Origin: Lysobacter sp. A03
GTDB lineage: Bacteria > Pseudomonadota > Gammaproteobacteria > Xanthomonadales > Xanthomonadaceae
Assembly (NCBI RefSeq): GCF_000855665.1
Contig: NZ_JXSS01000033.1
Location: 1 to 42,235, forward strand
Direction of reading: 5' to 3'
DNA: 42,235 bases
The notes beneath the pieces were generated by a model. The model had not been told where the DNA came from, ran no database searches, and saw only the letters and a list, made by a program, of their open reading frames with translations. Made by a program: the position numbers and the translations under genes. Position 1 is the first letter of the stretch, and every line of letters begins with the position of its first letter. Below are positions 14,019 to 22,345 of this stretch, in pieces.

Positions 14019-16029
14019 GATGAATTCCGTCGCCGGCAAGGGCCGTACCGTTGGCACCAACACCTGGCTCGTGGTGCTGGGCATTTCCATACTGGTGCTT
14101 GCGCTCAACGTGGGTTACGCCACCTACAAGGCCAGCCTGCTCAGTGGCGCCGGCGCGTCCGCCAGCAGTCTGCAGGTGGCGTCGCAGCGCCTGGCGGTGC
14201 AGGGACGAGAGGCAGTCGGCGGTGATGAGGCGGCCTACGCCGCATTCAAGACCACCAGAAGCGAAGTGGTTTCCGATATCAATGAGTTGAACGCCACCTT
14301 CGGCGACACTCCCGGGGTGTCGGGTCCCATCGCGACGGTGACCAATACATGGGCGCCGCTTGACAAGAGCGCGGAGCAGTTGATCGCCAGCGAGAAGGCG
14401 GTGCTGGGCCTGGCGACCAACGCCAACAGCTTCGAGCAACAGGTCCCCGACCTGCAGGCGCGCCTGGATGAACTCGTGCGGGCGATGTCGGCCAGCGGCT
14501 CGCCGTCCTCGCAGGTCTACTACGCGCTGCGCCAGGTGGTGCTGTCGGGAACCATGGCCCGCCGCGTGACCGAGATCCGCGCCGGTGGGCGCAACGCCGA
14601 AGCGGCGGGTGAAGGCCTCGCGCGTGACGCGGCCGTGTTCGGCAACGTCCTGGCCGGCCTGCGCAACGGCGACGAGGCGACCGGTATCACCCCGCTGGGC
14701 AATGCGGGCGCGGTGGCCGCGCTCGGCCAGGCCGAGGCGCTGTGGCAGACGATGAAAACCGACCTGGACGCCATTCTGGCGACCTCGCAGGACCTGTTTG
14801 CGGCGCAGTCGGCGGCGGATGCGATCACCAACGGCTCGGACAAGCTGCTCGCCGACAGCGAGTCGCTGTTCAACGCGTTCAACGCCCTCGGCACCCTCAA
14901 GGATCCCAGCCTGCTGGGTAACCTCTGGGTGTCCATCATTGCCGGCGCATTCGCCCTGGCCGCGATCGTCGGCCTGCTGTTCTCGCTCAGCAAGGCGCAG
15001 CGCGACCGGTACACCACCACCAAAGAACTCAACGACCGCAACCAGGAGGCGATCATGCGCCTGCTGGACGAAATGGGCTCGCTGGCGGAAGGCGACCTGA
15101 CGGTCAAGGCGACGGTGACCGAGGACATGACCGGCGCAATTGCCGACTCCATCAACTTTGCCATCGAGCAGCTGCGAACCCTGGTGCAGACGATTACCGA
15201 CACGTCCGTGCAGGTCGCGTCCAGCGCACAGGAAACGCAGGCCACCGCCATGCACCTGGCCGAGGCCGCCGAGCACCAGGCGCAGGAGATCACTTCCGCC
15301 TCCAGCCGCATCAGCGAGATCGCGACCAGCATCGACCAGGTCTCACGCAACTCCGCCGAGTCCGCCGACGTGGCGCAGCGCTCGGTGCAGATCGCGACCG
15401 CCGGTGCGGGCGTGGTCCGCCAGACCATCCAGGGCATGGACTCCATCCGTGACCAGATCCAGGAAACCTCCAAGCGCATCAAGCGGCTGGGCGAGAGCTC
15501 GCAGGAGATCGGCTCGATCGTTGAACTGATCAACGACATCTCCGAGCAGACCAACATCCTGGCGCTGAACGCGGCGATCCAGGCGGCCTCCGCCGGTGAG
15601 GCCGGCCGCGGGTTCGCGGTGGTGGCCGACGAAGTGCAGCGACTGGCGGAACGCTCCTCCAACGCGACCAAGCGGATCGAGTCGCTGGTCCAGGCCATTC
15701 AGGCCGATACCAACGAGGCGGTCAGCTCGATGGAGCAGACCACCACCGAGGTGGTCGCCGGTGCACGCCTGGCCGAGGACGCCGGCACCGCGCTGGGCGA
15801 GATCGAGAAGGTCTCCTCCGACCTGTCCGGGCTCATCCAGGGCATCTCGCTGGCCTCGCAGCAGCAGTCCGGCGCGGCGGCCAACATCACCGAGACCATG
15901 AACACGATCCAGCAGATCACCTCGCAGACCACGCAGGGTGCCAACCAGACCGCGCAGTCGATCGGCAACCTTGCGCAGATGGCCTCCGACCTGCGTCGTT
16001 CGGTCGCCGACTTCACGCTTCCTGCCTGA
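14008..16029 (+). CDS. pilJ: PilJ, methyl-accepting chemoreceptor for type IV pili
   Basis: This 673-residue protein has a first membrane segment at about residues 16-36 ([20 protein letters not shown]), a periplasmic PilJ-type sensor region to about 308, and a second membrane segment at about 308-330 ([20 protein letters not shown]). A HAMP-like linker follows, then a cytoplasmic signalling domain with the conserved hairpin tip ([25 protein letters not shown]). In Pseudomonas PilJ senses pilus surface contact through PilA interaction and controls ChpA. The ATG at 14008 has TGAGG 6-7 nt upstream and overlaps pilI by 11 nt; ATG 14020 is an alternative. No methyltransferase gene follows, so whether this receptor is methylated is doubtful. 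Confidence 0.93.
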
Positions 16030-16049
16030 GCCCCGCATTGGATCGAAGG

Positions 16050-16124
16050 ATGAACAGCATGACCCCCGGCCGCCGCCCGCACCCGCTGCGCGAGTGCGCA
16101 GCGCAATGGAGCATCGCGCCATGA
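16050..16124 (+). CDS. possible 24-codon leader peptide before chpA
   Basis: An ATG at 16050 preceded by GAAGG opens a 24-codon frame ([20 protein letters not shown] and four more residues). It ends TGA at 16122-16124, overlapping the chosen chpA start as ATGA. It lies in the only sizeable gap of the operon. It could drive translational coupling into chpA, or be a remnant of a lost gene. No homologue is recognised and the reading may be chance. Confidence 0.3.
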
Positions 16125-19100
16125 CGGTGATGCGCGATGCCATCGACACCACCACGCTGGGCTGGATCAAGCCGGAGCTGGACGAGACCCTGCGCCAGGC
16201 GCGCGAGCAGATCGAGGCCTTTGCCGAATCACCCGATGATGGCGAGGCGATGCGGGTGTGTGCCAGTCACCTGCACCAGGTGCATGGCACGCTGCGCATG
16301 GTTGAGCTGTACGCGCCGGCAATGGTCGCCGAGGAAATGGAGCGGCTCGCCCTCGGGCTGTTGCACGGCGAGATCGCCGACCGCGACGTCGCGTGCACCA
16401 TCCTGATGCGCGGCGCCGTCCAGTTGCCCGACTACCTGGAGCGCCTGCAGGGTGGGCACCGCGACATCCCCATCGTCCTGCTGCCGCTGCTCAATGAGCT
16501 GCGTGCCACTCGCGGTGAGTCGGGCCTGAACGAAAGCGTCCTCTTCGCGCCCAATCTCGATCGCCCGTTGCCTGTCGACCTACCGGCACCGGTCGTCGAA
16601 GACGCTCCGACCATCCGTACCGGTGTGCAGCCGATGAGCGCGAACCTGACCGGTTTGCGCGAAGCCATGGCGCAGTGGCCGGAAGGCGGCGAGCCTGCCG
16701 ATCCGGCCCGGCTGGCGGAAGTGGTGGATGGCCTGCTGGCCGAAGTCTCGGTGGAGCCGCTGCGGCGGATGCTGTGGGTGGCATCCTCGGTGGCCGGCGC
16801 ACTGCGCGACGGTGCATTGCCGGCAACCCGCGCGCTGCGCCAGGCATTCGGCGGCGTCGAGCGCGAAGCGCGCCAGCTGATGCGGGATGATGTCAGCGTC
16901 CCAGGCATCGAGCCCAATGCCGAGCCCACTCGCCAATTGCTCTATCACGTCGCCCACAGCGACGGCGGGCATCCGGCGCTGGACAGCCTGCGCAAGACCT
17001 TCGAACTGGACAGCCAGCTGCCTTCGGAATCGGAGCTGGACCATGCCCGAGGCAGCCTGAGCGGCCGTAACCGGGCGTTGCTGGACACCGTTTCGGCGGC
17101 GATCAAGGAAGACCTGCTGCGGGTCAAGGATGCCCTCGACCTCCACCTGCGCACCGGCCAGACGGGAGTCGAGGATCTGCGCCCGCAGGTCGATGCCCTC
17201 GGTCGGGTCAGCGACACCCTGGGAATGATGGGACTGGGCGTCGCGCGCGGCGTGGTGATGCAGCAGCGCGACGCGATGCACGAGATCGTGGCCGGCAACC
17301 GCGCCGCCGACGAATCGGCCCTGCTGGATGTGGCCGGCGCGTTGTTGTACGTGGAGACCTCGCTGGATGACCAGGTTGCACGCCTGGGCCTGTCGGATGA
17401 GCGCGCCGACAAGGACCTGCTCGAGAGCGAGTCGCGCAAGGTGCTTGAAGTGGTCGTGCGCGAGGCGATCGGCAACTTCGGTGACGCCCGCCAGTCCTTC
17501 GTTGCCTTCGTGGAGACCAACTGGGACCACGCCGAGCTGGTGGAAATCCCGCGCCTGCTCGATGAGGTCTGCGGGGCACTGCGCATCCTCGATCTCCACC
17601 TGCCGGCGGACTACCTGCATGGCGTGAAGCGCTACATCGAAGTCGAGTTGATCGGTCGCAAGCGGGTTCCGCACGGCAAGCAGCTCGACACCCTGGCTGA
17701 CGCCCTGGCCAGCGTCGAGTACTACCTGGAGGCGCTGCGCGAGCAGCGTCCCAACCGCGATCGAATCCTCGAAATCGCGCGCTACAGCCTGGAAGCACTG
17801 AGCTATTGGCCCGTGCCCGACGACCACGCCGCGACGGAGCAGTCGGCCTCGCCGGTCTCGGAGCAAGACGAAGAGAACGCCGCTGCCGCCCTGGACCAGT
17901 GGGCCTCCAAGGCGCGCCAGATCGACGCGCCGCGTTGGACCGAGGCCAAATCGGACACCACGCCACCTACCGAACAGCCGGGTTCCGAAAGCGTGCCAGA
18001 CATGCTTTCAGAAGCCCCGGTGGACCCTTCCGCTATTCCGGCACCTGTGCAAGACAACGCAGCGGCACCGACGGTGGCTGCGGCCGACGGCGTGGATGGT
18101 TTCGCGCAAAGCGACGACATCGACGACGAAATCCGCGAAGTCTTCCTTGAGGAGCTGGAGGAGGAAATCACCAATCTGGGCACGATGCTGGAGCAGTGGC
18201 GGCACGCGCCGGAGAACATGGAGCAGTTGCGCGGCATCCGCCGTGTGTTCCACACGCTCAAAGGCAGCGGCCGGTTGGTCGGTGCCAGAACGCTGGGCGA
18301 GTTCAGCTGGAAAGTGGAAAGCATGCTCAACGGTGTGCTCGGCGGAAGCCGGCTTGCCAGTCCGGCGGTCGTCGCGTTGGTCGAACAGGCTCACGCGGTC
18401 CTGCCGCAATTGCACGCCGCCCTGGCCGGCACCGGTAGCGTTACCGCCGACCTGGCGGGTCTGGAAGCGGTCGCCGACCGGATCGCCGAGGGGCAGGAAA
18501 CGTTCTATACCGCGCCGACCGAGGAAGTGGTCGCACCCGAAGTTTCCGAATTCGATGCAGGCAACGTTGCGCCTGAGCCGGCGATAGCGGACACGGAGTT
18601 GGCGCTGGAGGAGGGCATCCCGGCCTCGGTCGATGCCGTGCTGCTTGAGATCCTGGGCAGCGAGGTCGCCGGCCATCTGGAGACGATGCACCAGTGGCTG
18701 AGCGAGGCACATCTGGTGCCGCAGCCCGCCGATGATCGCCTGCAGCGCGCCATCCACACGCTCAACGGCGCCTTCGCAATGACGGAAGTGCCGGTGATCA
18801 CCGACATCACCACGCCCGCCGAAGCTTACGTCCGTCGTCTGTTGGCGGCCGGCGAGCCTGCCACTGCTGAAGGCGTAGCCGGCATCTCGGCAGTCTGCGA
18901 GGCAGTTGAGCGGACCTTGTCGGCCCTGCAATCCAGCCACCCGCGGATTCCGGCTTTCGCCGGCCTTGCGGAGCAACTGCTAGCGCTGCGCGACAGTCTT
19001 CCCGAAGTCCGCACGCAGCATCCGGTCGATGTGGACGTGCCGCTACCCGGCGCGCCGTCTGTTGGCCCCTCCGTGGCAGACCTCACTTCGTACATCGAGC

Positions 19101-22100
19101 CTGAAGAGGAAGGGGCGGGCAGCGAAATCGAAGACACTGCGGCCGAGCAGCGTGAAGCTGAACGCCTCCAGGCGGAGAGAATCGAAGCCGAGCGGATCGA
19201 GGCTGAGCGGGTCGAGGCTGAGCGGATCGAAGCCGAGCGGATCGAGGCCGAGCGGCTCGAGGCTGAGCGGGTCGAGGCCGAGCGAATCGAAGCTGAGCGG
19301 ATCGAAGCTGAGCGGATCGAGGCTGAGCGAATCGAGGCTGAGCGGATCGAAGCCGAGCGGCTCGAGGCTGAGCGGATCGAGGCCGAGCGAATCGAAGCCG
19401 AGCGAATCGAAGCCGAGCGAATCGAAGCTGAGCGGATCGAGGCTGAGCGGATCGAGGCTGAGCGGATCGAGGCTGAGCGGATCGAAGCCGAGCGGCTCGA
19501 GGCCGAGCGGCTCGAAGCTGAGCGGATCGAAGCCGAAGACGCAGCCGAATACGCCCTCCTCGAGGCGCAGTACGAGGCCGAGCGGCTTGCGCGTGAGGAG
19601 TTGGATTCCTCGCGCAGCTCCGACGACGAGGAAGCAGACGAATCCTTCGAAGACGCAGAAGCAGAAAAACGCTCGCATCAACCCAAGTCAGAAACCGAGT
19701 CGGCTTCGGAATCGGAAGCGGAGATCGAGTCCGACATCGAGTCCAGCTTCCCGGCGGTGCGCGCTGACGCTGAGCCGATCATTGTGGCGCCGTCCGCCGC
19801 GTTCGCGACGGTCGAGGATCCCGATGAGCCGCTCGATCTGAGCGACCTGGACCCGGAGCTGATCGACATCTTCGTGGAGGAGGGGAGCGACCTGCTGGAC
19901 CACTCCGACTCGCTGCTGGCCCAGCTCCGCGAGAGCCCCGGCGACGACGAACTTCTGGTAGGTCTGCAGCGCGACCTGCATACGCTCAAGGGCGGCGCCC
20001 GCATGTGCGGGATCATGGAAGTCGGCGAACTGGGCCACGTCATGGAGTCGCTGCTCGAGGCGGTGGTCGGGCAACAGTCCGAGCTGGGTAGCGACGGCGT
20101 ACCGTTGTTGGAACGCGGATTCGACCGTCTGCACGCGATGCTGACGCGTGTCGGCGATCGTCGCGCCATCGCGATGCCGACTGCACTGATCAACGAATTC
20201 GAAGCACGCGTCCGCGGCGAGTCGGTGGCTGCCGAGGTGGGTACCTCCGCCACCGAAGCCGGGCCGGCCGTTGCCACAGAGATGTACGAAGCGACGCTTG
20301 CCCCACCAGCGGATGGGCCCGACGCAGACATCCAGGAACCTGCAGAGCCGCAGCCGGAAATTGCGGAAGCTCCGCAGATGTCGGGGGCTTCCGAGGAGCC
20401 GGCTGTCCCGGCTGAAGTGACGCAGCTCGTCCACAAGACGAACATCCTTGGTCCGCTTTCCGCTCCGATCGTTGAACATCAGGATGACGACGACGAGATC
20501 GGTATCCGCGCCCCACAGGAGCAGGTGCGCATCCGCGCGGACCTGCTGGACCGTCTGGTCAACTACGCCGGTGAAGTGGCGATCTATCGCGCGCGCCTGG
20601 AGCAGCAGCTGGGTGCATTCCGCGGTGCCATCGGTGAAATGGCGGCCACCAACGAGCGCATGCGCGACCAGTTGCGCCGGCTGGAGATGGAGACCGAAGC
20701 CCAGATCGTCGCCCGCTACCAGCGCGAAGGCGAGGATGCGGAACAGACCTTCGATCCGCTGGAGCTGGACCGGTTCTCCAACCTGCAGCAGCTCTCGCGT
20801 GGCCTGTCCGAATCGGCCGCCGACCAGAGCAGCCTGCAGGTCACCCTGGACGACCTGACCCGTCAGTATGAGACTTTGCTGTTGCAGCAGTCGCGGGTCA
20901 GTTCCGACCTCCAGGAAGGCCTCATGCGCACCCGCATGGTGCCCTTCGACGGTCTGTTGCCGCGCCTGCGCCGGGTCATCCGCCAGGCGTCCGGCGAGTT
21001 GGACAAGCAGGTTGCGCTAAAGCTTGACGGCGCGCAGGGCGAACTTGACCGCAACGTGCTGGAACGCATGACGGCGCCGCTGGAGCACATGCTGCGCAAC
21101 GCCATCGCTCACGGCGTGGAGACCCCCGAGCAGCGCCGTGACGCTGGAAAGCCCGAGGAGGGCACGGTCCGCATCGCGATCCGGCGTGAAGGTTCCGAAG
21201 TGGTGCTGGAGGTCAGCGACGATGGTCGCGGACTCGACAGTGCGGCGATCCGTCGCCGCGCGGAGGAGCGAGGCCTGGTCGCGGCCGACGCAGTGATGAG
21301 CGACTTCGCACTGCATTCGCTGATCCTCCAGGCAGGGTTCTCGACGGCCGATTCGGTCAGTCGCCTGGCCGGACGCGGCGTGGGCATGGACGTGGTGGCA
21401 AGCGAGGTTCGCCAACTCGGCGGCTCGTTGGACATCCAGTCCCGTCCGGGGCAGGGGACCACGTTCGTCCTGCGCCTGCCGCAGACACTGGCCGTCACCC
21501 AGGCGGTGTTCGTCAAGATCGGCGAGACCACCTTTGCGGTGCCGATTGCCTCCGTGCGCGGCGTGGGTCGCATTGCTCGCGAGGAGTTGGTCGACGAGCA
21601 GGGCCAAGCGCGCGAGGCCAGCTACCGCTACGGTGGCGACGACTACACGGTGCACGACCTTGGCCAACTCGTCGGCCAGGCCCCCGCGGTCGCCGAAGGG
21701 CAGATCCAGATGCCTGTGCTGCTGGTGCGCTCCGGCGATCTGCATGCCGCAGTGACGGTCGACCAGGTCATCGGCAACCGCGAGATCGTGGTCAAGCCGG
21801 TCGGCCCGCAGGTGGGTTCGATGCCGGGCATCTTCGGCGCCACCATCATGGGTGATGGACGGGTCGTGGTGATCCTCGACGTCGCGCCGCTGGTGCGCCG
21901 CATGATCTCGATGCCGGCCTCGATGATGGCCGAGCCCGCGCCGACGTTGGAGTCGCGCCCGGTCCCACTCGTCATGGTCGTCGACGATTCGGTGACCATG
22001 CGCAAGGTCACCGGCCGGATCCTGGAGCGGCACAACTTCGAAGTCGCCACGGCGCGCGACGGCCAGGATGCGCTGGAGCGGATGGCGGACATGGTGCCGG

Positions 22101-22345
22101 ACCTGATGCTGCTGGACATCGAGATGCCGCGCATGGACGGCTACGAACTGGCGACCCGGATGAAGGGCGACGCACGCCTGCGCGACGTTCCGATCGTCAT
22201 GATCACGTCGCGGACCGGAGACAAGCATCGCCAGCGCGCGATGGAGATCGGCGTGGATCGGTACCTCGGCAAGCCGTATCAGGAACCCGAATTGATGCGC
22301 AACGTGTACGAGCTGCTCGCGCTTGAAAACCGCCATGAGCAGTAA
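16121..22345 (+). CDS. chpA: ChpA/PilL, giant hybrid chemotaxis kinase for twitching motility
   Basis: This 2074-residue CheA-type hybrid kinase has four recognisable phosphotransfer modules with histidines at 52 (HQVHG), 711 (FHTLKG), 879 (IHTLNG, less canonical) and 1287 (LHTLKG). A pentapeptide-repeat region at 1018-1137 separates the third and fourth. A CheA dimerisation/ATPase core follows (N box around Asn1660, then DDGRGLD and GRGVGMDVV), then a CheW domain and a C-terminal receiver with Asp1999 ([11 protein letters not shown]). Residues about 80-600 contain FimL-like helical segments. It phosphorylates PilG/PilH in response to PilJ. P. aeruginosa ChpA is about 2470 aa with more transfer domains. 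The ATG at 16121 has GGAG 9 nt upstream; 16106 and 16130 are alternatives. It overlaps the next gene by 11 nt. Confidence 0.95.
19172..19531 (+). repeat. 24 tandem 15-bp repeats encoding (AER[I/L/V]E)n in chpA
   Basis: Twenty-four in-frame 15-bp units follow without interruption: 18 encode AERIE, 4 AERLE and 2 AERVE. Codons vary synonymously (GCC/GCT, GAA/GAG), so the array is not freshly duplicated throughout, though some neighbouring units are identical. Imperfect related sequence flanks it (EAERLQ before; [14 protein letters not shown] after). The encoded 120 residues alternate acidic and basic side chains and contain no Pro or Gly, so they should form one long helix. Confidence 0.97.

Follow-up and report, generated by a model that had tools for sequence, protein, structure and literature searches.

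The closest described counterpart of the element studied here is domain II of TolA in Escherichia coli, which is, as we propose for the array described below, a long helical spacer built from repeats that vary in number and lies between functional domains. Among 234 E. coli isolates, TolA domain II carries 8 to 16 repeats and their number tunes the phenotype, with contraction of the repeats measured at 6.9 × 10-5 and dependent on RecA (PMC3477136). The domain is known as a long helix that can partly be replaced by another structured spacer (PMC10666116), and in other TolA/TonB lineages domain II is Pro-rich or disordered (PMC10666116, PMC12204202). Charged single alpha-helices (SAHs) also serve as spacers (PMC5347031, PMC5812594). 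The designed sequence AEEEKKK forms such a single helix, a Glu followed three residues later by Arg is the most stabilising Glu-Arg pairing, the persistence length of a single helix is about 15 nm, and in one study Arg-rich designed single helices aggregated (PMC5347031). ChpA of Pseudomonas aeruginosa and other CheA proteins of the Tfp class share with the protein described here multiple Hpt domains, a kinase core, CheW, a receiver and a gene neighbourhood of the same kind (PMC10542144, PMC12632253), and some of the Hpt domains of pilus kinases are without a settled role (PMC10542144).

The window analysed here is a stretch of 42,235 nucleotides, contig 37 of the 119 contigs that make up the 2.86 Mb genome of Lysobacter sp. 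A03. An ORF at 15938-22345 encodes four Pfam Hpt stretches together with H-kinase_dim, HATPase_c, CheW and receiver domains, the composition of a Tfp-class CheA (ChpA), a kinase acting on type IV pili. Because CheW and MCP genes precede it and CheB-like and CheW genes follow (gene order CheW, MCP, chpA, CheB-like, CheW), we identify the ORF as the chpA gene of a pil-chp cluster; names of genes here follow homology and context. The linker between its penultimate and last Hpt domains (Table 1) contains 24 consecutive 15-nt units in the chpA frame, as counted in this assembly, of which 18 encode AERIE, 4 AERLE and 2 AERVE. The initial annotation had proposed a 24-copy AERIE-type pentapeptide array in ChpA, and this array is confirmed as real, in frame and at exactly the positions tabulated. 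Tandem Repeats Finder recovers it with a period of 15, 24.1 copies and 87% matches (19170-19530), and in 2000 residue shuffles of ChpA no AER[ILVA]E stretch exceeded a single unit. The composition of the unit is 40% Glu, 20% Arg and 20% Ile/Leu/Val with almost no Lys, giving a net charge of -1. Codons at the A, E, R and final E positions vary only synonymously, and swaps between Ile, Leu and Val are confined to position 4. The codon preference within the array (GCT for Ala, CGG/CGA for Arg) differs from that in the remainder of chpA, as expected of a locally duplicated tract, and no lag stands out that would indicate a higher-order repeat within the array.

Table 1. Features of chpA and its repeat-bearing linker (positions counted from the first base of the window)
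Feature	Positions	Strand	Basis
chpA, encoding a multi-Hpt CheA of the Tfp class	16106..22345	+	ORF from 15938; ATG at 16106 or 16121 probable start
Penultimate Hpt, HTLNG motif (nt 18755)	18629..18991	+	Profile match and motif
Acidic linker, 285 residues, penultimate Hpt to last Hpt	18992..19846	+	Hpt profiles
Predicted unbroken helix of 156 residues (170-325 of the model)	19136..19603	+	AlphaFold2 model
AER[I/L/V]E array, 24 units, 15-nt period	19172..19531	+	Tandem Repeats Finder and unit count
Conserved 18-residue motif, EYARLEAEYAEADR-like in relatives	19544..19597	+	LExY/LExxY motif search
Last Hpt, HTLKG motif (nt 19979)	19847..20140	+	Pfam and profile
Kinase core and tail: H-kinase_dim, HATPase_c, CheW, receiver	20519..22303	+	Pfam

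The array is not peculiar to one genome and is common in the family. With the kinase region of ChpA as a query, 146 of 149 family genomes give a match at E 1e-100; with the array as a protein query, 83 of the 149 do so at E 1e-10, some of these matches being to an RNase E-like protein and not to ChpA. In wider draws the same query matched 6 of 321 genomes at class level and 14 of 349 at phylum level, both counts including the source genome itself and G018 of the same family; outside the family, matches in the draws searched are few and those examined are other proteins. Hpt boundaries were set by profile search across ChpA loci, 209 of which have a last Hpt, 178 a recognised penultimate Hpt and 154 a penultimate Hpt above its score cut-off of 100. 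The relatives contributed 129 loci, 7 of which were dropped by the penultimate-Hpt criteria, leaving 122, with 114 in the family of the window. ChpA was taken from 121 of the 146 matching family genomes and 114 of these gave a complete linker; most ChpA genes cut by a contig end were left out of this sample, and such loci would often carry arrays. Of the 114 complete family linkers, 71 have six or more ER-type pentads and 52 have six or more of the strict AER[ILVA]E form. The other 43 fall below six ER pentads, which implies that ChpA is able to function with different spacers, a Pro-rich EPEV repeat among them. The relatives that could be named belong to Lysobacter (L. maris, now Marilutibacter, family Lysobacteraceae), Xanthomonas, Stenotrophomonas, Pseudoxanthomonas and Dyella, and linkers that are not of the array type occur in the last four of these. 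The position within the protein is nearly constant, with 182 of 185 strong repeat rows (from 152 ChpA ORFs, many incomplete) falling in this linker and the other three in L250 and L257. The ChpA ORF of L250 (G150) carries a second ER array outside this linker.

Related repeats were also seen in proteins other than ChpA. Two loci that share one genus code (L268 and L269, from G012 and G114) hold 25 and 28 VEAPR pentads, or 36-37 when variants are included, in what we take to be the C-terminal tails of an RNase E-like protein; these Pro-containing tails are probably a disordered counterpart of the 15-nt repeats. A run of 37 AERLE units lies in the middle of the L273 protein (G226), presumably a TolA-like protein from another family, and ER-rich repeats occur in the proteins of L280, L287, L290 and L275, which we take to be FtsY-like and IF-2-like proteins, with the repeats near the N-terminus, and an ExeA-like ATPase.

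The reading that best accounts for the array is a helical spacer kept by selection, with a putative role in signalling. In its full form this reading, which we consider probable, holds that the array is a mostly solvent-exposed Glu-Arg single alpha-helix, a spacer arm between the upstream Hpt domains and the last Hpt and kinase core, whose charged skeleton is under selection while its length drifts.

The 15-nt period is a property of this linker across relatives. The period is a multiple of 15 nt in 85 of 99 strong linker tandem arrays (score at least 150), a count that includes at least four genomes twice (L033/L202, L041/L183, L040/L141 and L046/L237) and in which relatives are not independent, and in none of the 5 strong arrays found in 1.04 Mb of other sequence (the window and 80 named loci). 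The unit itself differs between lineages: AAAAE-type units fill the ChpA linker in L150, L227, L228, L231, L244 and L254, and further units are AEAIE (L135), AEAVE (L136), AEEAT (L236), EKLAA/EQAAA (L056) and the Pro-rich EPEV, present 29 times in L258. Within a single genus code, g52, the same ChpA slot holds three unrelated tandem repeats, AAAAE in L254 (G130), AERVE in L257 (G155, where the contig ends nearby) and EPEV in L258 (G104).

Array length changes fast between species while the charged pattern is kept. Among the best-matching listed pairs of array-bearing ChpA, which are 0.904-0.995 identical over two Hpt domains (ungapped) and in which many loci recur, the number of pentads differs in 25 of 25. 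Eight complete linkers from the genus of the window carry from 17 to 52 relaxed pentads, 26 of them in the window. The two Hpt domains of the window and its nearest relative, G007, are 97% identical, and when the repeat units are joined, 0 of the window's 349 30-mers are common to both; over whole linkers, 13 of 826 30-mers are common with G007 and 68 of 826 with G001. The comparison among close relatives that the initial annotation called for thus gave unequal copy numbers throughout, and the change expected of a tandem DNA repeat is borne out, and is fast, between species, the collections holding one genome per species.

In one alternative, which we regard as unlikely but credible, the linker is an acidic spacer under little or no constraint, nothing but its length and negative charge counts, and 15-nt slippage in GC-rich genomes makes pentads with the helix as a by-product. 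Every one of the 154 linkers tabulated for features is net acidic, irrespective of its repeat, the 122-linker set ranges widely in length, from 151 to 619, and 22 of 99 background arrays (score at least 50) have a period of 15, so a preference for 15 nt at the DNA level is possible; the VEAPR tails, from two genomes of one genus code, likewise show pentads that contain Pro. To assess selection on the unit, we compared each codon with the commonest codon at that position of its array, counting single-base changes only; duplicated variants within one array are not independent mutations. In 48 arrays with 1400 units, pN/pS is 0.216 at A, 0.033 at the first E, 0.031 at R, 0.811 at the hydrophobic position (0.50-1.29 when arrays are resampled) and 0.041 at the last E, and other transition weights leave this picture unchanged. 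The 416 nonsynonymous changes seen in 49 arrays include one to Pro, where 44.3 are expected, and 14 to Gly, where the expectation is 42.6. Changes from E to K are similarly rare in the 49 arrays (2 observed, about 20 expected) and changes from A to T are in excess (58 observed, 25.8 expected); since both arise by the same G-to-A change, mutation bias does not explain the deficit of E to K. Pro makes up 0.05% of residues inside and 6.7% outside the arrays of the same 52 linkers, a difference that is partly by construction because the pattern fixes three of the five positions. The constraint at E and R and the near absence of Pro indicate selection on the sequence, which argues against a spacer in which only length and charge count. 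Pro is, moreover, part of the unit in the RNase E-like tails and is not depleted in nine other ChpA pentad arrays (8 observed, 5.0 expected; Gly 3 against 7.6). On our reading of these substitutions, selection appears to keep a salt-bridged, unbroken helix and to ignore the residue that a coiled coil would need.

A second alternative, less likely still, assigns the function to the EYARLEAEYAEADR-like helix just after the array, with the array serving only as a stalk that presents this helix for partner docking. A EYARLEAEYAEADRLARE-like segment lies directly after the array in the window and in L119, L121, L200 and others, while the remaining linker is hypervariable, and the LExY/LExxY pattern occurs in 45 of 73 array linkers and in 5 of 77 others. 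As read from the sequence, the motif has a heptad-like Y-L-Y face, and the segment is a possible docking or dimer contact. The motif as searched is absent from the other 28 of the 73 array linkers, and it may be just an old array end.

The only pairings in the pentad are from Glu to Arg at i+3 and from Arg to Glu at i+4, and the pairing predicted for the Arg residues, with Glu at i+4 and i-3, is true of every Arg in the unit. The helical moment at 100 degrees is 0.083, compared with 1.33 for a leucine-zipper peptide, and there are no hydrophobic i+3 or i+4 pairs, so the claim that no continuous hydrophobic stripe forms holds. The array residues of the 52 linkers are 37% Glu and 19% Arg, and in this richness and in the lack of a hydrophobic seam they resemble SAHs. 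We therefore consider it very unlikely that the array is a conventional coiled coil, dimeric or trimeric, joining the two ChpA protomers, even with a helix predicted over the array and with H-kinase_dim found in ChpA. Dimerisation of ChpA is expected through H-kinase_dim; in the array we found a period of 5 only and neither heptad or hendecad spacing nor conserved hydrophobics, the hydrophobic position being the least constrained, the reverse of a coiled coil.

That the array forms a helix is a prediction, and that the helix is monomeric is what we infer. The AlphaFold2 model (monomer, 14 rows, 504 residues) places the array within one helix with block-mean pLDDT of 85-95 over the array and a pTM of 0.34; AlphaFold is prone to draw helices for such repeats, and a monomer-only run cannot exclude oligomers. 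With the same 14 rows, the array-free linker of L046 (Stenotrophomonas) has pLDDT below 50 over most of its length and no long helix in the slot, and taken together with the 43 linkers below six ER pentads this predicted disorder indicates that the helix is not essential to ChpA generally. Among solved structures the best sequence match is a collagen VI alpha 3 repeat at E 0.0059, and no usable template was found. The mean helix cost of the array on the Pace-Scholtz scale is 0.284 kcal/mol, against 0.283 for AEEEKKK. Opposite-charge pairs number 0.40 per residue, or 0.23 of the density in EEEEKKK, unweighted and without network terms (this ratio is not a Waggawagga-CLI score, for which the default cut-off is 0.25), and each pentad also contains one acid-acid i+3 pair. 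Of the stable single alpha-helix first proposed for this segment, an unbroken helix is favoured by both selection and the model; its stability is putative, given this pair density and the aggregation of Arg-rich designs.

The proposal that a rigid helix holds the domains apart stands in part as well. The helix length is 18 nm for the array and 23 nm for the model helix, and at a persistence length of 15 nm the r.m.s. length of the arm ranges from 15.0 nm for the array to 18.6 nm for the model helix, compared with about 7-11 nm if as many residues formed a coil. Separation is thus expected; rigidity is not, since the length is comparable to the persistence length and mostly low-confidence chain, about 48 and about 81 further linker residues, flanks the model helix. 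A helix between such tails would separate the domains and not hold them rigidly, and flexible tails would leave their distance set and their orientation free.

It is highly improbable that the number of repeats, or the array itself, is an assembly artefact. At least six array matches, among those listed, begin within 30 nt of the first base of their contig, and N occurs in some linkers: that of L118 (G005) has a run of 50 N, and those of L143 (G025) and L216 have one N each. In L118 and L143 the upstream sequence looks out of frame, probably from assembly trouble at the repeat. In the window, the longest exact in-register repeat is 44 nt and every 45-mer of 19001-19700 is unique, so an ordinary assembler is able to resolve the array; the reading frame is preserved through it, and arrays are present in the relatives G002, G006 and G007, each listed as a single contig.

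A pentapeptide beta-helix of the PF00805 type or an RNA-level element can be set aside as having almost no likelihood, because the PF00805 match to the same DNA (E 2e-13) lies in another frame (19029-19841) and is a periodicity artefact, the chpA frame has no PF00805 match in Pfam up to E 1, and the RNA of the array folds no better than shuffles (z 0.81). An antisense ORF at 19043-19681, whose sole match is PF05287, below the cut-off (E 0.0017), is in our view a fortuitous product of the repeat.

Returning to the selected helical spacer, the mechanism that we envisage is as follows. A salt-bridged Glu-Arg helix, set in an acidic linker whose remainder is probably disordered, would form a spacing arm of about 15-19 nm between the upstream Hpt domains on one side and the last Hpt with the kinase/receiver core on the other. 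Selection retains the E-R-x-E skeleton and excludes helix breakers, and duplication and loss of 15-nt units alter their number, so that length drifts between species. Such an arm may lower the rate at which an upstream Hpt encounters the last Hpt, kinase or receiver inside one protomer, and it could let the upstream Hpt domains reach neighbouring dimers; its job may be to set the reach and local concentration of Hpt relative to kinase and receiver within the same or a neighbouring dimer. We know of no measurement of the distance between Hpt and kinase in pilus kinases.

A broader and doubtful extension is that seam-free five-residue helical repeats arose more than once in the ChpA slot (AERxE, AAAAE, EKLAA/EQAAA and perhaps AEAIE), the 5-residue period spreading side chains evenly, and that copy number is an evolving ruler for Hpt exchange within one dimer versus with neighbours in a receptor array. 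A quick tree, built from 148 rows and 219 columns with no mixture model, requires the ER state to change at least 6 times, and starred branches force 4 of these changes; the ER labels come from a loose pattern that also takes in L056 and L057, whose repeats are EKLAA/EQAAA or irregular. This count is blind to gain versus loss, and an old origin followed by losses may fit much of it; the case for convergence therefore rests on the differing units and not on the history of ER.

If the array is a spacer of this kind, the differences in helix length between close species amount to a natural test of how reach affects a phosphorelay of several steps, and the selection pattern is a structure-free read-out of the requirements of a natural single helix, namely a conserved charged skeleton, the exclusion of Pro and a free choice of hydrophobic residue. 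Within the literature collection searched, we found no published report of the ChpA array, and the Pseudomonas linkers, inspected over the first 420 residues, show no ER pentads. Like ER/K motifs and SAH domains, the array is long, rich in Glu and Arg, seam-free and built on opposite-charge pairs at i+3 and i+4; unlike them, it has a strict 5-residue period, 20% Ile/Leu/Val, almost no Lys, a charge of -1 in each unit and a pair density roughly one quarter that of EEEEKKK. EAAAK, the rigid helical linker of protein engineering, is also a five-residue unit with salt bridges, and the ChpA slot of other lineages has the pentads AAAAE and EKLAA/EQAAA. The array differs from EAAAK in being natural and Arg-based, with two pairings per unit and many more copies. 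With regard to TolA, the host of the array is a kinase, and the membrane anchor, domain III and tol-pal operon of a TolA do not apply to it. TolA is a periplasmic force transducer with Lys/Ala/Glu repeats, whereas ChpA has a cytoplasmic kinase linker of Glu/Arg pentads, and the two have no domain in common. The Pro-rich or disordered domain II of other TolA/TonB lineages parallels the other linkers of ChpA, the AERLE units of L273 link the ChpA-type unit to a TolA-like protein, and the idea of a variable repeat length, as known from TolA, is extended here from the envelope to a cytoplasmic kinase.
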